In this document: positions 45,464-63,661 of the stretch, one piece after another
Layout: every line of letters begins with the position of its first letter
How positions within the stretch are numbered: position 1 is the stretch's first letter
Assembly: GCA_945957395.1 (NCBI GenBank)
Contig: CAMFKE010000003.1
Location: forward strand, 1 to 64,000
Length of the DNA: 64,000 bases
Reading direction: 5' to 3'
Source of the DNA: an uncultured Opitutia bacterium
GTDB taxonomy: Bacteria > Verrucomicrobiota > Verrucomicrobiia > Opitutales > UBA953
Position numbers and translations under genes: made by a program
Notes under the pieces: model-generated
Told to the model about the DNA's origin: nothing
The model's input: the letters and a program-made list of their open reading frames with translations, nothing else
The model's database searches: none

Positions 45464-47101
45464 ATGGCCGAAATCATCGATATGCCCAAGCTGTCCGACA
45501 CCATGTCCGTCGGCACCGTCGTCAAGTGGCACGCCAAGGAAGGCGACAAGCTCGTGTTCGACACCCTCGTGTGCGAAATCGAGACCGACAAGGCCACCAT
45601 GGAGCTCAAGCACACCGCCAACGACGGCGTGCTGCTCAAGATCTACGCGCCCGCCGGAGCCCAGCTCCCGGTCGGCACCCCCATCTACGCCTGCGGCAAG
45701 GCCGGTGAGGCCGCCCCCGCCGTCGGCGGCGCCGCCCCCGCTCCCGCCGCCGCCCCGGCCGCCGTCGAGGCCGCGCCGGCCCCGGCCGCGATCCCGTCCG
45801 ACTTCAAGGGCGAGATCATCGACATGCCCAAGCTGTCCGACACCATGAGCGTCGGCACCGTGGTGAAGTGGCACGCCAAGGAAGGCGACAAGCTCGTGTT
45901 CGACACCCTCGTGTGCGAAATCGAGACCGACAAGGCCACCATGGAGCTCAAGCACACCGCCAACGACGGCGTGCTGCTCAAGATCTACGCCGCCGCCGGC
46001 AGCCAGCTCCCCGTCGGCTCGCCCATCTACGCCTGCGGCAAGGCCGGAGAGACCGCGCCCGCCCTCGGCGGCGCCGCCCCCGCGCCCTCCGCCAAGGCCG
46101 CCGCCGCCATCCCCGCCCAGGTGCCCGCCACCTGCGCGCCCAACGCCGCCCCGGCCCCCGCTCCCGCCCCCGTCTCCGGTGACGGCCGCGTGAAGGCCTC
46201 GCCGCTGGCCAAGAAGGTCGCCGCCGAGCTCGGCGTGGATGTGGCCGGCGTCGCCGGCACCGGCCCCGCCGGCCGCGTGGTGCGCGCCGATGTGGAATCC
46301 GCCGCCAAGGCGCCCAAGGCAGCCGCCCCGGCCGCCGCCGCCCCCGCGAAGTCCGCCGCGCCCGCCGCTCCGGTCTACACCGGCCCCGGCATCCAGGAAG
46401 AGAAGGACGAGCCGCTCTCCACCATGCGCTCGGTCATCGCGCGCCGCCTCACCGAATCGAAGACCACCGTGCCGCACTTCTACCTCGAGATCGAGGTGGA
46501 CGCCGCCCCGCTGGAAGCCCTGCGCGAAACGCTCAACGCCAAGCTCGGCGAGCTGCCCCCGGAACAGGGCGGCATCAAGCTCACCGTCAACGACTTCATC
46601 CTCAAGGCCTCCGCCGAGGCGCTGCGCCGCGTGCCCGCGGTGAACGCCCAGTGGGCCGGCACGGCCATCAAGAAGTTCGCCTCCGCCAATGTCTCCTTCG
46701 GCGTGGCCATCGACGACGGCCTCGTCACCCCGGTCGTGCGTGACGCGCACGCCAAGAGCCTGCGCCAGATCTCGATCGAGGCCAAGGAGCTCATCGGCAA
46801 GGCGCGCAAGAAGAAGCTCACCCCCGCGGAAATGTCCGGCGGCACCTTCACCGTGTCCAACCTGGGCATGTTCGGCATCGCCGGCTTCTACGCCATCATC
46901 AACACCCCCCACGCCGCCATCCTCTCCGTGGGCGCGACGGTCTCCAAGCCCGTCGTCAACGCGAAGAACGAGATCGTCGTCGGCCGCCGCATGACCCTCG
47001 GCCTGGCCGTCGACCACCGCGTGGTGGACGGCGCCGACGGCGCGAAGTTCCTGCAGGCCCTCAAGGACCTGCTGGAAGCGCCCGCGCTGATGCTGGTGTA
47101 A
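45464..47101 (+). CDS. pdhC: Dihydrolipoamide acetyltransferase (E2 of pyruvate dehydrogenase type)
   Basis: E2 transfers acetyl groups from lipoyl-lysine to CoA. The 545-aa protein has two lipoyl domains with ETDKATMEL at Lys43 and Lys157, joined by Ala/Pro linkers. A peripheral-subunit-binding domain follows (VKASPLAKKVAAELGVDVAGV), then the catalytic domain with SNLGMFGIAGFYAIINTP and the active-site DHRVVDGADG. The two lipoyl domains are nearly identical. No E1 or E3 gene adjoins. The leader has CCCTTTTACC just before the ATG. The acyl substrate is taken as pyruvate because of overall resemblance; other 2-oxoacids are possible. Confidence 0.93.
   Translation: MAEIIDMPKLSDTMSVGTVVKWHAKEGDKLVFDTLVCEIETDKATMELKHTANDGVLLKIYAPAGAQLPVGTPIYACGKAGEAAPAVGGAAPAPAAAPAAVEAAPAPAAIPSDFKGEIIDMPKLSDTMSVGTVVKWHAKEGDKLVFDTLVCEIETDKATMELKHTANDGVLLKIYAAAGSQLPVGSPIYACGKAGETAPALGGAAPAPSAKAAAAIPAQVPATCAPNAAPAPAPAPVSGDGRVKASPLAKKVAAELGVDVAGVAGTGPAGRVVRADVESAAKAPKAAAPAAAAPAKSAAPAAPVYTGPGIQEEKDEPLSTMRSVIARRLTESKTTVPHFYLEIEVDAAPLEALRETLNAKLGELPPEQGGIKLTVNDFILKASAEALRRVPAVNAQWAGTAIKKFASANVSFGVAIDDGLVTPVVRDAHAKSLRQISIEAKELIGKARKKKLTPAEMSGGTFTVSNLGMFGIAGFYAIINTPHAAILSVGATVSKPVVNAKNEIVVGRRMTLGLAVDHRVVDGADGAKFLQALKDLLEAPALMLV
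45524..45990 (+). repeat. Identical 125-bp tandem copies within the E2 lipoyl domains
   Basis: Bases 45524-45648 and 45866-45990 are identical over 125 positions, offset by 342 bases. They code for the core of lipoyl domains 1 and 2. Flanking lipoyl sequence diverges at synonymous positions. Confidence 0.95.
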
Positions 47102-52651: not shown

Positions 52652-52728
52652 TGGCGGGATGGACGGGGCTCGAACCCGCGACCTCCTGCGTGACAGGCAG
52701 GCGCTCTAACCAACTGAGCTACCACCCC
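52652..52728 (-). tRNA. tRNA-Asp (anticodon GTC)
   Basis: The minus strand folds as a class I tRNA: acceptor GGGGTGG/CCATCCC, D arm from TAGCTCAGTTGG, anticodon stem CCTGC/GCAGG with loop CTGTCAC (anticodon GTC), T arm CGGG-TTCGAGC-CCCG. Discriminator G and an encoded CCA are present. Confidence 0.97.
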
Positions 52729-52859
52729 CTGACTGAAAGCGAGGCAACCAAATCGCCTCCGAAGGTCAAGAGGTTTTTGAAATATTTTTCGCCGTCCCGA
52801 CGGCCCTGCGACGGCCCTCTTTCGACGGCGTCACAAGCGGGAAAAACAGGGGCCGGCGT

Positions 52860-54461
52860 TCAGGTGCGCCGGTCGATGGGGGAGATACAGTAAAGGCCGT
52901 CGACCAGCCTCGGGATGCCCGTCGGGTTGGCGTCGCGAAGCTCGGCCGGAAGCATGTCGTCGGGATGGTTCTGATAACACACGCGGCGTGTGAAGCGCTG
53001 CAGGGAGACGCTGCCCATGGAGGTGCTGCGCCCGTCGGAGGTCGCCGGATACGGGCCGCCGTGCACGACGGCCCGGCTCACCTCGACGCCCGAGGTCGCC
53101 CCGTTGAACACCACGCGGCCCGCCTTGTCGGACAGCACGCGCATCAGTCGCGACGCCATGCCCGACTCCAGCGTCTCGGCGTACACCGCGGCCGCAAGGG
53201 CGCCCGGCAGCATCCGCGCCGTCTGCATCATGTCGGTCTTGTCCACGCACTGCACGACCAGCGCCAGCGGCCCGCGCACCTCGTCGCCCAGGTCGGCGCG
53301 CCCGCGGAAGGCGGCGGCGTCGGTGAAGAACAGCGCCGGCGCGGCCGCCCAGGCGCCGCAGCCCTCGCGGGGCCCGGCGGCCAGCACGCGCAGGTCGGCG
53401 TCGTGGGCGCGGGCGGACAGGACCGCCTGGTAGGCGGCGTGGGCGCCGGGGCTGAGCATCGGCAAGGCCGGCGTGGCGCGCACCGCGCGGGCGAGACGAT
53501 CCAGGAACGCGTCGGAGTCCTCGCCGGCGACAAGGAACACGAGCCCGGGGCGAGAGGCGGTCTGGCCGGCGTTGTGCGTGAAGGACTCGTGCAGTTCGGC
53601 CGCGATGGCGTCGGGACGGAAGCGCAGCGCGCCTGGCAGCAGAAACACGGGGTTGGCGGCGCCCATCTCGGCGTACACGGGGATGGGACGCTCGCGGGCG
53701 GCGGCCAGGGCCGTCAGGGCTCGACCGCCCTTGCGCGTGCCCGAGTAGGCCACGGCGCACACCTCCGGATGCGTCACCAACTCGCGCCCCGTGTCGTCGC
53801 CGTCGTCGAAAAGCACGGAGAAAGCGCCGGCGGGCAGGCGGGCGGCCGCCAGTTCGCCGGCCACGATGGAGGCGATCAGGGCGGAGGTGCCCGGATGCGC
53901 CGGGTGCGCCTTCACGACCACCGGGCAGCCCGCGGCGAGGGCCCCGGCGGCGTCGCAACCGATCACCGAGTGCGCGAAGGGGTAAAGGGACGAGGCGAAC
54001 ACGGCGACCGGACCGACCGGCCGGCAAATCGAGCGATGGTCGGGCTTCGGGGTCGGCAGCCGCTGCGGGTCCGCGGTCTCCACGCGCGCGTCCAGCCAGG
54101 AGCCGTCCTCAAGCTCCTCGGCGAACAGGTTCAGCTGGGCGGCCGTGCGCGCCAGCTCGCACTTGAGCCGCGTCGAGCCCAGGGCGGTCTCGTTGTCAGC
54201 GCGCTCCACGAGCTCGGATTCGGCGTCCAGGAGCCGTCCGGCGAGGCTGCGTAAAAACTCGGCGCGGCGCAGCGGCGGGGTGTCCGCGAAGGCCTCGGCT
54301 GCGCGCGCGGCGAGCTCGCAGGCCTGCCGGGCCTGCTCGGGCGTGGCGGCATGGAATTCGGGCGGCAGGTAGGCGTCGGCGGCGGGATCGATGGCCCTGA
54401 AGGCCCGGCCGGAAGGTTCGGCCGGCTCGCCGGCGATGCGGGAAAGTCCGAGTATGGGCAT
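52860..54461 (-). CDS. Aldehyde-dehydrogenase-fold protein lacking catalytic Cys and Asn (probable pseudoenzyme)
   Basis: The closest class is alpha-ketoglutarate semialdehyde dehydrogenase/ALDH. The 533-aa frame is intact and the fold motifs are well kept: GALAAGCPVVVKAHPAHPGTS (NADP pocket), AYSGTRKGGRAL, and AEMGAANPV with the general-base Glu265. Two key residues are replaced: GQFCTNPG of the family reads GQTASRPG here, so the nucleophile Cys is Ala302; and SNFPLAFS reads SLYPFAHS, so the oxyanion-hole Asn is Leu159. Oxidation of an aldehyde by the known mechanism would not be possible. The gene may be a binding or regulatory paralogue, or a recently decayed gene, though no frameshift is seen. 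It stands alone, upstream of tRNA-Asp. Confidence 0.85.
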   Translation of the reverse strand: MPILGLSRIAGEPAEPSGRAFRAIDPAADAYLPPEFHAATPEQARQACELAARAAEAFADTPPLRRAEFLRSLAGRLLDAESELVERADNETALGSTRLKCELARTAAQLNLFAEELEDGSWLDARVETADPQRLPTPKPDHRSICRPVGPVAVFASSLYPFAHSVIGCDAAGALAAGCPVVVKAHPAHPGTSALIASIVAGELAAARLPAGAFSVLFDDGDDTGRELVTHPEVCAVAYSGTRKGGRALTALAAARERPIPVYAEMGAANPVFLLPGALRFRPDAIAAELHESFTHNAGQTASRPGLVFLVAGEDSDAFLDRLARAVRATPALPMLSPGAHAAYQAVLSARAHDADLRVLAAGPREGCGAWAAAPALFFTDAAAFRGRADLGDEVRGPLALVVQCVDKTDMMQTARMLPGALAAAVYAETLESGMASRLMRVLSDKAGRVVFNGATSGVEVSRAVVHGGPYPATSDGRSTSMGSVSLQRFTRRVCYQNHPDDMLPAELRDANPTGIPRLVDGLYCISPIDRRT

Positions 54462-54578: not shown

Positions 54579-55157
54579 TCAGCGCAGCGAAAACGGGTCG
54601 TGCGGCGCCCGATGGCCCGGGATGCGCACGGGGAAATCGGTCACCACGCAGCGCCCGTCGCGCAGCGAGGCCGGCACGGCGATGACGCGCTGGTTGCTCG
54701 AACCGCGGAAGCGCAGCAGCAGCGAACGCTTCTCCTGCACGAAGCGCCCGTCCACCAGCAGGTCGAGCTCGGCGAGCAGCTCGCGCGCGCCGGCGGGCGC
54801 GGCGGCGGGGTCGCTCAGCTCCTCCCAAGTGTATCCGGTATAACACAACACATGCAGGCCCAGCGCGCGGCAGGCGCGCGCCAGCGGCGCGAGCGCCGGC
54901 GCCTGACGGAAGGGTTCGCCGCCGGAGAGCGTGACGCCGTCGAGCCATTCACGCCGGGCGCGGATGCGGGAAACCACCTCGTCCGCCGCCATCTCGCGGC
55001 CGCCCTCGGCGTTCCAAGTGGCGGGATTGTGGCAGCCCTCGCAGCGGTGCGGGCACCCCTGCACGAACACGGCGTAGCGCATCCCGGGCCCGTCCACGAT
55101 GGAGTCGGGCACCAGGCCGGCCAGGCGAAGGATGTTCGATGAAGTTGCGGCGTTCAT
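54579..55157 (-). CDS. nrdG: Anaerobic ribonucleotide reductase activating protein
   Basis: NrdG is the radical-SAM enzyme that generates the glycyl radical on NrdD. The 192-aa protein has the cluster motif CPHRCEGC after DSIVDGPGMRYAVFVQG, then VTLSGGEPFRQAPAL and the C-terminal domain with VDGRFVQEKRSLLLRFRGSSNQR. The start is the ATG at 55157 (MNAATSSNILRLAG). It is downstream of nrdD on the same strand, 115 bases apart, and probably co-transcribed. Confidence 0.95.
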   Translation of the reverse strand: MNAATSSNILRLAGLVPDSIVDGPGMRYAVFVQGCPHRCEGCHNPATWNAEGGREMAADEVVSRIRARREWLDGVTLSGGEPFRQAPALAPLARACRALGLHVLCYTGYTWEELSDPAAAPAGARELLAELDLLVDGRFVQEKRSLLLRFRGSSNQRVIAVPASLRDGRCVVTDFPVRIPGHRAPHDPFSLR

Positions 55158-55272: not shown

Positions 55273-57681
55273 TCAGCCTTCGGAGCAGGAGCAGTCGTCG
55301 CCGGAGGTGATGGCGCCGTGCTTGATGCGTTCGCGTTCCTCGGCGCGCTTGGCGTCGTTGAAGCGGTCGACGGTGCCGACGAGGTAGCCGGTGATGCGGC
55401 GGATGCGTTCGAACTTGGGACCGCCGTCGGCTTCGGTGCGGCCGCAGTTGGGGCACTTGTCGTGGATGACGCCGGAGTGGCCGCAAACGGGGTCGCGGTC
55501 GACCGGGTGGTTGACGGAGCCGTAGCCGATGCCGGCGGCGTGCATGGCGCGCACGATCTTCTCGAAGGCCTCGGGGTTCTGCGCGGTGTCGCCGTCGAGC
55601 TCCACATAGGTGATGTGGCCGGCGTTGGTGAGGGCGTGGTAGGGGGCCTCGATGCGGATCTTCTCGAAGGAGGAGATCTTGTGGCGGACGGGGACGTGGA
55701 AGCTGTTGGTGTAGTAGTCCTTGTCGGTGACGCCGGGGAGCTTGCCGAACTTCTTGCGGTCGATGCGCACGAAGCGGCCGGAGAGGCCTTCGGCGGGCGT
55801 GGCGATGAGCGAGAAATTCAGGGTGTGCTTGGCGGCGAGGGCGTCGGTGAAGGCGCGCATGCGGCTGACGATTTCCAGGCCGAGTTTCTGCGACTGCTCG
55901 CACTCGCCGTGGTGGCGGCCGGTGAGCACGGTGAGGCACTCGGCGAGGCCGATGAAGCCGATGGTGAGCGTGCCGTGCTTGATGACCTCGCGGATCTCCT
56001 CGTCCCAACGGAGCTTTTCGGAGTCGAGCCAGACGCCCTGCCCCATGAGGAACGGGAAGTTGTAGACGCGCTTGCGGGACTGCACCTCGAAGCGCTCGAA
56101 GAGCTGGTCGGTGACGAGCTCCATCATGCGGTCGAGCGACCGGTAGAACTTTTCGAGGTCGCCCTTGGCCTGGATGGCGAGGCGGGGCAGGTTGATGGAG
56201 GTGAAGCTGAGGTTGCCGCGGCTGAGTGTCTGCTCGCGCTCGGGGTCGTGGATGTTGGAGACGACGCGGGTGCGGCAGCCCATGTAGGCGATCTCGGTCT
56301 CGGGGCGGCCTTCCTTGTAGTACTTCAGGTTGAAGGGCGCGTCCTGGAAGGCGAAGTTGGGGAACAGGCGCTTGGCGGAGACGCGGCAGGCGAGCTGGAA
56401 GAGGTCGTGGTTGGGGTCGCCGGGGTTGAAGCTGACGCCCTCCTTCACGCGGAAGACCTGGATGGGGAAGATGGGGGTCTCGCCCTGGCCGAGGCCGGAT
56501 TCGGTGGCCAGAAGGAGGTTTTTGACGACGAGGCGGCCCTCGGGGGAGGTGTCCATGCCGTAGTTGATGGAGCTGAACGGGGTCTGGGCGCCCGCGCGGC
56601 TGTGCATGGAGTTCAGGTTGTGGATGAAGGCCTCCATCGCCTGGTAGGTGGCGATGTCGGTCTCGCGCGCGGCCTGGGCGGCGGCGTATTCGCGGGCGGC
56701 GGCCACCTTGTCGGCGGGGATGCCGGCGGCGAGCAGGGCGTCGGTCTCGGCCTTGTCGAAGGCGGCGCAGCCGCCGAGCAGGGCGGTGAGTCCGGATTCG
56801 GCGGCGAACCGCTTGTGCAGGGCGGCGATACGCGACTCGGAATCGGCGTCGGCGGCGAGCAGGCGCAGGGCGCCGGCGAGTTCGCGGGCGTACTGTTTGC
56901 GGTAGGTGTTGGCGACGCCGCGGGCCATGGCGTACTCGAAGTTGCCCACGGACTGGCCGCCGTGCTGGTCGTTCTGGTTCGACTGGATGGCGATGCAGGC
57001 GAGCGCGGCGTAGCTGCGGATGTCGCGCGGCTCGCGCAGGTGGCCGTGACCGGTGGAAAAGCCGCCCCGGAAGAGCTTGATGAGGTCGATCTGGCAGCAG
57101 GTCGTGGTGAGCGAGTAGAAGTCCAGGTCGTGGATGTGGATGTCGCCGGAGCGGTGGGCCTCGGCGTGCTCGGGCTTGAGCATGAAGGACTCGTAGTAGT
57201 GCTTGGCGCCCTCCGAGCCGAACTTGAGCATCGCGCCCATGGCGGTGTCGCCGTCGATGTTGGCGTTCTCGCGCTTGATGTCGCTCTGCCCGGCGTCGGT
57301 GGAGACGATGTCGTGGAAGGCGCCCATCAGGCGGTTTTCGCGCTCACGCACGCGGGTGCGCTCGGCGCGGTACAGGATGTAGCGCTTGGCGGTGTCCGGG
57401 TAGCCGGCTTCGGCGAGCACGACTTCGACGAGGTCCTGGATCTGCTCGATGGAGGGCAGCGTGGTGCGGCGCTCGGCGAGACGGTTGGCCACGAGTTCGG
57501 CCAGGTCCAGGGAGATGGTTTCCGCGTCCATGGCGGGCACTTCGCCGGAGACATGGAGGGCCTTGCGGATGGCGGTGGCGATCTTCTCGAGATTAAAGGG
57601 GGCCTCGCGACCGTCGCGCTTGCGGACCTTGAGAACCAAGGTGCGGGTTTCGGCCTGGAATGGGAAAGTGTATTGGCTCAT
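55273..57681 (-). CDS. nrdD: Anaerobic (class III) ribonucleoside-triphosphate reductase
   Basis: NrdD makes dNTPs from NTPs without oxygen, using a glycyl radical. The 802-aa protein has an N-terminal ATP-cone (VLKVRKRDGREAPFNLEKIA), the barrel with HIHDLDFYSLTTTCCQIDL, and the C-terminal zinc site (DPVCGHSGVIHDKCPNCGR). The radical segment is RRITGYLVGTVDRFNDAK with Gly765, followed by a terminal CSCSEG. Two NrdR boxes precede it. The ATG is preceded by CTTTTTCC. Confidence 0.97.
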   Translation of the reverse strand: MSQYTFPFQAETRTLVLKVRKRDGREAPFNLEKIATAIRKALHVSGEVPAMDAETISLDLAELVANRLAERRTTLPSIEQIQDLVEVVLAEAGYPDTAKRYILYRAERTRVRERENRLMGAFHDIVSTDAGQSDIKRENANIDGDTAMGAMLKFGSEGAKHYYESFMLKPEHAEAHRSGDIHIHDLDFYSLTTTCCQIDLIKLFRGGFSTGHGHLREPRDIRSYAALACIAIQSNQNDQHGGQSVGNFEYAMARGVANTYRKQYARELAGALRLLAADADSESRIAALHKRFAAESGLTALLGGCAAFDKAETDALLAAGIPADKVAAAREYAAAQAARETDIATYQAMEAFIHNLNSMHSRAGAQTPFSSINYGMDTSPEGRLVVKNLLLATESGLGQGETPIFPIQVFRVKEGVSFNPGDPNHDLFQLACRVSAKRLFPNFAFQDAPFNLKYYKEGRPETEIAYMGCRTRVVSNIHDPEREQTLSRGNLSFTSINLPRLAIQAKGDLEKFYRSLDRMMELVTDQLFERFEVQSRKRVYNFPFLMGQGVWLDSEKLRWDEEIREVIKHGTLTIGFIGLAECLTVLTGRHHGECEQSQKLGLEIVSRMRAFTDALAAKHTLNFSLIATPAEGLSGRFVRIDRKKFGKLPGVTDKDYYTNSFHVPVRHKISSFEKIRIEAPYHALTNAGHITYVELDGDTAQNPEAFEKIVRAMHAAGIGYGSVNHPVDRDPVCGHSGVIHDKCPNCGRTEADGGPKFERIRRITGYLVGTVDRFNDAKRAEERERIKHGAITSGDDCSCSEG

Positions 57682-60324: not shown

Positions 60325-61056
60325 TCAGAACGCCTGGATGCCGCGGGAGCGGTAGGTTTCCAGGACGCGCTTGATGGTGTCGAAGTCGGGCGGCGAGGTG
60401 TTGGTGAGGTCGTAGCGCTGGTTGAGCTTCTGCCACTTGTCCTCACCGAGCTTGTGGAACGGCAGCACCTCGACGCGCTCGACGCAGGAGCCGAGGGAGG
60501 CGACGAAGTCGGCGTGGGCCTCGACATCGGCGGGGGCGTCGGTCCAACCGGGCACGAGCACATAGCGCACCCACATCTTCTTGCCCATGCCGGCGAGCCG
60601 GCGCGCGCATTCGAGAGTGGGCGACAGGTCCACGCCGGTGAGCTCGCGATGGGCGTCGGCGCGGATGTGCTTGATGTCGAGCAGGGTGAGATCGACCTCG
60701 TTCCACCACTCGTCGGAGACGTTGCGGTGGAGGAAGCCCTGGGTGTCCAGCGCGGTGTGCACGCCGAACTCGGCGCGCACGCGGCGGAAGAGCTCGCCGA
60801 CGAAGTGCGCCTGGTAGAGCGGTTCGCCGCCGCTGACCGTAAGGCCGCCGCCGGAGCGCTTCAGGAGGCCGACATAGGGTCGGATTTCCTGAAGCACCTC
60901 GGAGACGGTGACCTCGCGGCCGCCTTTGACATCCCAAGTGTCGGGATTGTGGCAGTACTTGCAGCGCAGGAGGCAACCCTGCGTGAACAAAACGAAACGG
61001 ACGCCGGGTCCATCGACCGCGGCGCCTGTTTCGATACTGTGGATACGACCGCGCAT
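60325..61056 (-). CDS. pflA: Pyruvate formate-lyase activating enzyme
   Basis: This radical-SAM activase of 243 aa installs the glycyl radical on PflB. It has MRGRIHSIETGAAVDGPGVR, cluster motif CLLRCKYCHNP, LTVSGGEPLYQ, DTQGFLHRN and the C-terminal LPFHKLGEDKWQKLN, all typical of PflA. It lies 30 bases after pflB on the same strand and is probably co-transcribed. Confidence 0.96.
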   Translation of the reverse strand: MRGRIHSIETGAAVDGPGVRFVLFTQGCLLRCKYCHNPDTWDVKGGREVTVSEVLQEIRPYVGLLKRSGGGLTVSGGEPLYQAHFVGELFRRVRAEFGVHTALDTQGFLHRNVSDEWWNEVDLTLLDIKHIRADAHRELTGVDLSPTLECARRLAGMGKKMWVRYVLVPGWTDAPADVEAHADFVASLGSCVERVEVLPFHKLGEDKWQKLNQRYDLTNTSPPDFDTIKRVLETYRSRGIQAF

Positions 61057-61086
61057 GTGCGTGGGGGTCGGTGATCCGCAGCCGGA

Positions 61087-63357
61087 TTACATGGAGGTGT
61101 GGAACGTGCGGCTGATCACGTCGAGCTGCTGCTCGCGGGTCAGCTTCACGAAGTTCACCGCGTAGCCGGAGACGCGCACGGTGAGCTGCGGGTAGTTCTC
61201 GGGGTGCTCCATGGCGTCCTGCAGCGTGGCGCGGTCGAACACGTTCACGTTCACGTGGAAGCCGTTGGCGGCCGCGAAGGTGTCGAGGCAGGCGCCGAGG
61301 TTGTTCACGCGGTCGGTGAGGGTGCGGCCGAGGGTGCCGGGCGTGGCGGCGGCGGTCCAGGAGATGCCGTCGAGAGCGGCGGTGTAGGGGATCTTGGCCA
61401 CCGAGGCGCCGGCGGCGACGAAGCCCTTCTTGTCACGACCGTGCATCGGGTTGGCTCCGGGAGCGAAGGGCTCGCCGGCGCGGCGGCCGTCGGGGGTGTT
61501 GCCCGTCTTCTTGCCGTACACGACGTTGGAGGTGATGGTGAGCACGCTCTGCGTGGGCAGGCTGTTGCGGTAGGTCTTGCGGTTGCGGATCTTGTCCATG
61601 AACCGCTCGGTGAGCCACACGGCGATGCTGTCGACGCGGTCGTCGTTGTTGCCGTAGCAGGGGAACTCGCCCTCGGTCTTGAAGTCCACGATCAGGCCGC
61701 GGTCGTCGCGGACGACCTTGACCTTGGCGTACTTGATGGCGGAGAGGGAGTCGGCGGCGACGGACAGACCGGCGATGCCGCAGGCCATGGTGCGAAGGAT
61801 GTCGCGGTCATGCAGGGCCATTTCGATGCGTTCGTAATGGTACTTGTCGTGCATGTAGTGGATGCTGTTGAGAGCGTCCACATAGGTCTTGGACAGCCAG
61901 TCCATCATCTTGTCGAAGGACGCCACGACGGTGTCGTAGTCGAGCGTGTCGCCTTCGTAGGGCTTGAAGCCCTTGGCGACGACGTCGCCGGAGAGCTCGT
62001 CGCGGCCGCCGTTAAGGGCGTAAAGGAGGGCCTTGGCGAGGTTGGCGCGGGCGCCGAAGAACTGCATCTGCTTGCCGATGCGCATGGCGGACACGCAGCA
62101 AGCGATGCCGTAGTCGTCGCCCCAGTGAGGACGCATCAGGTCGTCGTTCTCGTACTGGATGGAGCTGGTCTCGATGGAGACGCGCGAGCAGAAGTCCTTG
62201 AAGCCCTTCGGGAGCGAGGTGCTCCAGAGGACGGTGAGGTTGGGCTCGGGCGCGGGGCCGAGGTTGAAGAGGGTGCTCAGGGTGCGGAAGCTGGTCTTGG
62301 TGACCAGGGTGCGGCCGTCGAGGCCCATGCCGCCGATGGACTCGGTGACCCAGACGGGGTCGCCGGAGAAGAGCTGGTCGTACTCGGGCGTGCGCAGGAA
62401 GCGCACGATGCGCAGCTTCATCACGAGGTCGTCGATGATTTCCTGGGCCTGCGACTCGTTGAGGGTGCCTTCGCGGAAGTCGCGCTCGAAGTAGATGTCG
62501 AGGAAGGTGCTGATACGGCCGATGGACATGGCCGCGCCGTTCTGCTCCTTGATGGCGGCGAGGTAGCCGAAGTAGAGGGCCTGGGTGGCTTCGCGGCCGT
62601 TCTTGGCGGGCGCGGAGATGTCGATGCCGTAGCTCAGGGCCATGGCGGCGAGTTCGCCCAGGGAGCGGATCTGCTCGGAGAGCTCTTCGCGAAGACGGAT
62701 GCTGTCCTCGTTGAACTCGCGGGCGTCCATTTCCTTGAGCTCGCGCTTCTTGTCGGCGACGAGCTTGTCGATGCCGTAGAGGGCCACGCGGCGGTAGTCG
62801 CCGATGATGCGGCCGCGGCCGTAGGCGTCGGGAAGACCGGTGAGCACGCCGGACTTACGGGCGGCGCGGATGTCGGCGTTGTAGGCGTCGAACACGCCCT
62901 GGTTGTGGTCCTTGCGGTACTTGTAGATTTCCTCGACCTTGGGATCGAGCTTGTAGCCGAAGGCCTCGAGGCCGTTCTGCACCATGCGCAGACCGCCGTT
63001 GGGCATGATGGCGCGCTTCAGGGGGGCGTCCGTCTGCAGGCCGACGATGACTTCCTTGTCCTTGTCGATGTAGCCGGGGCCGTAGGCGGTGATGGACGAC
63101 ACCACGTCGGTGCTGGCGTCGAGGATGCCCTTCTTGCGCTCCTCCTTGATGAGGACGCAGAGCTTTTCCCAGAGCGCCTTGGTGCGCTCGGTCGCGGGGG
63201 CGAGGAAGCTGTCGTCGCCGGTGTACGGCGTGTAGTTGGCGACGATGAATTCGCGGACGGCGACGGCGTTCTGCCAGCCGGTTCCGGTGAAGCCGCGCCA
63301 GCCCTCGGGCGTGGCGGCGGCGGGTTTGGTGGCGGCGGTGTCCTTGGCGGTGCTCAT
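61087..63357 (-). CDS. pflB: Formate C-acetyltransferase (pyruvate formate-lyase)
   Basis: PflB splits pyruvate and CoA into acetyl-CoA and formate in anaerobic growth. The 756-aa protein has the active-site Cys pair in [30 protein letters not shown], and the glycyl-radical segment [18 protein letters not shown] with Gly731. The N terminus, after a Thr/Ala tail of about 16 residues, is [19 protein letters not shown]. The ATG at 63357 is followed on the plus side by a long control region. The CTTTTACC tract lies just before the start. Confidence 0.97.
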
Positions 63358-63661
63358 GACTTTATGGTAAAAGCGTGAAGGGTTTGCATGTCGCCTGCTT
63401 CGACGACGCACCCGACCGTGCGCCATTTCCCGGGAATGGCGAATTTTTTCCTAAAGTATTCTAATTTGCCCACCGGCGGTCGTTAAGAAAAACTTATCCT
63501 GTGAAGCAAAATCATACCAAACGGTCCGATTTAAGGAATTCCCTCCGAGGCCGCATGAAACCCCCTAAACATCGGAGGAATCGCGGTTTTCGAAGGCTTT
63601 AAAACAACCGTTTGACTCGCACTCAAACGGGCGTTTCATACGGCGCCACATCCCCTCTCCC
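63358..63661. promoter_or_regulatory. Divergent pflB/TetR control region
   Basis: These 304 bases are the most AT-rich part of the window. For pflB the minus strand shows a -35-like TTAACG (63481-63486) and a -10-like TAGAAT (63458-63463) 17 bases apart, giving a leader of about 90 bases. I found no clear FNR (TTGAT-N4-ATCAA) or full Rex site; a TGTGAA half-site lies near 63500. The right end holds the TetR operator. Confidence 0.6.
63608..63630 (+). promoter_or_regulatory. Candidate TetR operator overlapping -35 of the regulator gene
   Basis: Perfect 8-bp arms CCGTTTGA and TCAAACGG are separated by 7 bases. A TTGACT element (63612-63617) lies inside, so a bound regulator would block its own promoter. 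The -10 (around 63635-63640) is weak. Confidence 0.65.

Follow-up and report, generated by a model that had tools for sequence, protein, structure and literature searches.

A stretch of 64,000 nucleotides from an uncultured Opitutia bacterium (contig CAMFKE010000003.1; hereafter, the window) encodes a member of the aldehyde dehydrogenase (ALDH) family that is probably a true pseudoenzyme: a folded protein that has probably kept NADP(H) binding and acts as a binding or regulatory protein. We give this reading a probability of about 0.68, because the losses lie in the catalytic blocks, the framework is kept, omega = 1 is rejected, and because of the gene's GC pattern, its predicted fold, and its orphan context. 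The ligand, the partner, and the role that we discuss below are what we infer.

The protein (the window ALDH) matches the Pfam family Aldedh (PF00171) with 133.9 bits (the cut-off is 23) across profile positions 6-432 of 461, and it does not reach any ALDH equivalog in NCBIfam (the best score is 83 bits and the cut-off is 750). Its top match in the PDB is the NADP+-dependent ALDH of Vibrio harveyi (1EYY, 355 bits, E = 5e-105), and it also matches a semialdehyde dehydrogenase from S. meliloti (3V4C, 343 bits, E = 3e-101). Its relatives align with it end to end. The window ALDH belongs to the lineage of α-ketoglutaric semialdehyde dehydrogenase (KGSADH, class III) and V. harveyi ALDH. Over 533 codons, direct reading of the frame found 0 internal stops and 0 frameshifts. 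The preliminary description of this DNA gave the correct coordinates, the correct residue numbers (Leu159, Glu265, and Ala302), and an unbroken frame, to which we add the strand and the length of the product (Table 1).

Table 1. Features of the window ALDH and its surroundings, in nucleotide positions of the window.
Feature	Position	Strand	Details
Window ALDH, coding sequence	52860..54461	-	533 aa, ATG start; KGSADH class III / 1EYY lineage
Codon 159: Leu replaces oxyanion-hole Asn (SNFPFA to SLYPFA; F160Y adjoining)	53985..53987	-	direct reading; Asn in 101/101 relatives
Codons 239-246: cofactor-turn motif FTGSxxGG to YSGTRKGG	53724..53747	-	alignment; conservative, both motif glycines kept
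Codon 265: general-base Glu, kept	53667..53669	-	alignment with relatives
Codon 302: Ala replaces nucleophilic Cys (GQFCT to GQTAS)	53556..53558	-	direct reading; Cys in 101/101 relatives
Codon 396: Arg replaces Phe of ExFGP motif (nicotinamide side of cofactor site)	53274..53276	-	Phe invariant in relatives
Codons 453-460: substrate-side loop NGFPTGVE to NGATSGVE	53082..53105	-	alignment
tRNA-Asp (gtc), directly downstream of window ALDH	52652..52728	-	
Terminator-like hairpin over the window ALDH stop codon, then T run	52853..52872	-	consensus scan; 6 in region vs. 3.9 expected
nrdG, anaerobic RNR activase	54579..55157	-	TIGR02491, 143 bits, cut-off 126; 117 nt upstream of window ALDH, same strand
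nrdD, anaerobic ribonucleoside-triphosphate reductase	55273..57681	-	NF005497, 1126 bits

In the ALDH mechanism, a cysteine forms the thiohemiacetal and then the acyl-enzyme, and an asparagine stabilizes the oxyanion. The window ALDH lacks the nucleophilic Cys of GQxCxxPG (it has Ala302) and the oxyanion-hole Asn (it has Leu159). These two replacements, which the preliminary description had reported, are borne out by comparison with 1EYY and 3V4C, in which SNFP and GQFCT stand at the places of SLYP and GQTAS in the window ALDH, and by relatives from the same order, 101 of 101 of which have the equivalents of Asn159 and Cys302 (55 that we extracted first and then 46 more). Given the lack of both residues, the sequence makes aldehyde dehydrogenase activity very unlikely. 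The description of two independent losses was right about both of them, but the count was too low, as 12 invariant positions within the catalytic blocks are altered (N159L, F160Y, F239Y, T240S, S242T, S268A, F301T, C302A, T303S, F396R, P456T, and T457S). The residues that are kept include the general base Glu265, the ribose-binding Glu394 of the ExFGP motif (whose Phe is Arg396), Gly241 and Gly246, Lys184 and His186 of the NADP site, N270-P271, and HGGPYP.

Might the protein still be an active ALDH, with its nucleophile displaced or its register different? T301 and S303 flank Ala302, and pseudoenzymes with migrated catalytic residues exist (PMC10211241). But the catalytic block (THNAGQTASRPG) contains no Cys at all, and the oxyanion Asn and the Phe of ExFGP are lost too, so we consider this highly improbable.

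The altered positions are concentrated around the active site. We considered the 96 alignment columns that are identical in 29 non-redundant relatives, and six catalytic blocks: the Asn motif (155-165), the cofactor turn (239-246), the Glu motif (263-271), the Cys motif (296-307), ExFGP (392-400), and the substrate loop (453-460). Of the 96 columns, the window ALDH alters 13: 12 of the 34 that lie within the blocks and just 1 of the 62 outside them (P = 8.7e-6, Fisher exact test; we drew the blocks from ALDH motifs after seeing the losses, rather than from measured distances, so the P value is indicative). In other words, 61 of the 62 framework invariants are kept. A divergent but active-looking relative with as many changes (L027) has the opposite pattern, with 0 of 34 in the blocks and 13 of 75 elsewhere. 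The blocks are also unchanged (0/34) in L017-L020 and L080, and the two most distant relatives (L022 and L028) have no enrichment of changes in the blocks. The contrast with L027, for the same blocks and in the opposite direction, indicates that the losses in the window ALDH do not reflect random decay. With a looser set of conserved columns, the window ALDH does not stand out: 38 of 191 columns (20%) are altered, vs. 13-26% in outgroup lineages. The sole mark that distinguishes it from those lineages is the location of its strictly invariant losses, and not the overall amount of change.

The codon evidence also bears on whether the gene is simply decaying, that is, whether the pathway and the function were lost and a not-yet-broken pseudogene is drifting without selection. 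In pairwise codon models of the window ALDH and its relatives, fixing omega = 1 costs 93-150 log-likelihood units. (With dN at about 0.46 and dS saturated, no value can be put on omega itself. The tests also give an average for the branch from its start, with the time before the losses included; a short and recent relaxation of constraint may have occurred.) The GC content at the three codon positions (GC1/GC2/GC3) is 0.75/0.56/0.91, which is similar to the neighboring genes. Decay would fit with the gene's orphan position, with no feeding pathway found, and with its long terminal branch (see below). Also, the lack of a stop codon says little: we calculated that about 170 random substitutions would have to accumulate in such a GC-rich gene before a stop codon became 95% likely, so the open frame is weak as proof of selection. 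However, random hits would strike the framework as often as the catalytic blocks, which is not what we see (1/62 vs. 12/34), and the strong GC pattern by codon position, the rejection of omega = 1, and the lack of a frameshift argue against decay as well. Overall, we view early decay as unlikely. We did not see a clear Shine-Dalgarno sequence upstream of the window ALDH, but most of the neighboring genes lack one too, so we do not view this as a sign of decay.

The catalytic residues are lost while the framework has been under long-term constraint (12/34 vs. 1/62; omega = 1 rejected), which is the combination that the sequence of an ALDH pseudoenzyme would be expected to have. The preliminary description had proposed selection for a non-catalytic role or for a new chemistry. 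The loss of catalytic invariants, the kept framework, and the rejection of omega = 1 agree with this proposal.

Structure prediction gave an ALDH fold that is as confident as for an intact relative: the AlphaFold2 model of the window ALDH has a pLDDT of 86 and a pTM of 0.86, and the model of L065, from the same sequences, has a pLDDT of 81 and a pTM of 0.81. According to Foldseek, the nearest fold is 1EYY (TM = 0.89 when normalized by the query, or 0.94; rmsd = 2.3). As judged from these models, the window ALDH retains the ALDH fold. At 458-480, low pLDDT might suggest that the substrate loop has collapsed; the model of intact L065 is of low confidence in the same place (440-472), so we draw no conclusion from this stretch.

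The genome with the window is the sole representative of its genus among the genomes we compared. Judged by gene content, the organism may be of a gut type. We found matches in 40 of 79 genomes from its family and in 129 of 373 genomes from its order, and the nearest of these relatives are 45-51% identical to the window ALDH. Searches of the order, the family, the phylum, GTDB, and IMG/VR did not find any orthologue with losses like C302A or N159L; a single sequence has them. A peptide-pattern scan found no close relatives in GTDB genomes or IMG/VR, and we also looked for another genome from the same genus by way of the neighboring NrdD and found none among its 80 best matches (mainly Firmicutes, up to 66% identity). 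In a maximum-likelihood tree, the window ALDH groups with a clade from another family in the same order (f14; ultrafast bootstrap of 86) and falls outside its own family's clade of copies (support of 100). Its terminal branch is 1.04 substitutions per site; among the other tips, just one exceeds 0.57. A long terminal branch would also be expected under relaxed constraint. From this tree, we take the window ALDH to be either a copy that separated long ago or one acquired by transfer, and not the product of a recent duplication of the enzyme in its own family. Among the other copies, a relative from the same family (L006) has an in-frame TGA within the matched span, and another (L021/L029) is in two pieces around undetermined residues, which is probably an assembly gap.

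The window ALDH also has no pathway neighbors (KdgD or hydroxyproline genes) and is flanked by nrdDG and the tRNA-Asp. In contrast, intact relatives can be clustered with genes of a pathway: L051 is in a Pro_racemase-DAO-DHDPS-ALDH cluster, which we take to be a hydroxyproline-type arrangement, and L055 is in a DHDPS-ALDH-MFS cluster, which is presumably of the sugar-acid type. The genome that contains the window has no match to Pro_racemase (the family of hydroxyproline epimerase) and no KdgD-type dehydratase, so the routes to α-ketoglutaric semialdehyde via the DHDPS and racemase families are missing. It does encode two DHDPS-family proteins: DapA, which is over the cut-off, and a NanA-like lyase, which scores best against the model for N-acetylneuraminate lyase without reaching its cut-off and which adjoins a sialidase-like ORF. 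Nor does it encode an intact KGSADH; its remaining ALDH-family genes are PutA-size, acylating (AdhE/EutE-like), or ProA. The NanA-like lyase (L163, at about 126527-127381 of G000:C7) lies between what are, from our reading of the sequences, presumably an MFS transporter and a protein with sialidase-type repeats (SDDDGKTWS). This setting suggests the use of host sialic acid.

On the minus strand, the gene order is nrdD, nrdG, and the window ALDH, and the only Rfam match nearby is the tRNA. The position after nrdD-nrdG suggests that the window ALDH is expressed in anoxia, and it is a purely positional hint at a functional tie to ribonucleotide reduction. The genes for pyruvate formate-lyase activase and formate C-acetyltransferase (pflA and pfl, 60325-63426, minus strand) are near nrdDG, so two glycyl-radical enzymes and their activases are clustered, which implies that this region is geared to anoxic growth. 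The best matches of NrdD in the GTDB scan are mostly from Firmicutes (up to 66% identity), and transfer is a possible origin of nrdDG. Elsewhere in the window, the E2 component of pyruvate dehydrogenase (45464-47101, plus strand) has two near-identical tandem lipoyl domains, and IDMPKLSDTMSVGTVVKWHAKEGDKLVFDTLVCEIETDKATMELKHTANDGVLLKIYA occurs twice.

What might a pseudoenzyme of this kind do? It would form a stable oligomer with the ALDH fold that is unable to oxidize aldehydes via the Cys mechanism. Given the residues that are kept in the cofactor site, it would have been retained as a binding protein, probably for NADP(H) or a related ligand. The ligand would be held in a remodeled and more polar pocket (Y160, H164, H296, N297, and R396), and the protein would regulate or scaffold a partner. 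The preliminary description suggested sensing of NADP(H) or an aldehyde; what speaks for this is that the cofactor-site residues K184, H186, G241, G246, and E394 are kept. A more specific idea is that a KGSADH-lineage protein came to bind NADP(H) in a regulatory role (or became an enzyme with the ALDH fold and without the Cys) and is tied to the nrdDG operon, but this is speculative and we think it rather improbable. Alternatively, Glu265 and the new polar residues (H164, H296, N297, R396, T301, and S303) might catalyze a new, Cys-independent reaction. Some of the new residues in the pocket are polar or charged, which does not look random, and the protein retains Glu265 along with much of its cofactor site. 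But there are no orthologues that would show the new residues to be conserved, there are no partner enzymes of a pathway in the operon, and we know of no citable precedent for a Cys-independent enzyme with the ALDH fold. We consider a new chemistry quite unlikely.

How does the window ALDH compare to proteins that have been studied? Class III KGSADH (2,5-dioxovalerate dehydrogenase, with 3V4C as a solved relative) is similar to it end to end and in length, at about 40-51% identity, and shares the C-terminal motifs HGGPYP and GVEV, Glu265, and the Lys and His of the NADP site. Unlike class III KGSADH, the window ALDH has alterations in the Cys, the oxyanion Asn, the Phe of ExFGP, and nine other invariants in the catalytic blocks; and unlike those relatives, it has no pathway neighbors and adjoins nrdDG. 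1EYY, its top PDB match in both sequence and fold, keeps GASNFP and GQFCT where the window ALDH has ASSLYP and GQTAS. ALDH-derived crystallins are from animal classes of ALDHs, outside the KGSADH lineage. The ω-crystallins of the lens are ALDHs that were recruited as structural proteins (PMC10650815); by description, they resemble the window ALDH in being repurposed. In human ALDH16A1, the catalytic residues are absent, and a role in binding has been proposed for it (PMC8160307, PMC10650815). It is also like the window ALDH by description, as both have the ALDH fold without the catalytic triad, but ALDH16A1 is from another branch of ALDHs and is longer, with an extra C-terminal domain, whereas the window ALDH is bacterial and single-domain and keeps the general-base Glu.

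ALDH pseudoenzymes are already known, and a bacterial one from the KGSADH lineage would be new: among the papers that our literature search covered, we found no report of a pseudoenzyme from this lineage. Bacterial ALDHs are usually called enzymes because of their family name; for the window ALDH, this would give the incorrect label of semialdehyde dehydrogenase. Here, the pattern of losses at invariant sites allows repurposing to be told apart from decay with just one sequence, with L027 as a built-in control. If a role is found for it, the window ALDH would be a bacterial and single-domain addition to the few known ALDH pseudoenzymes.
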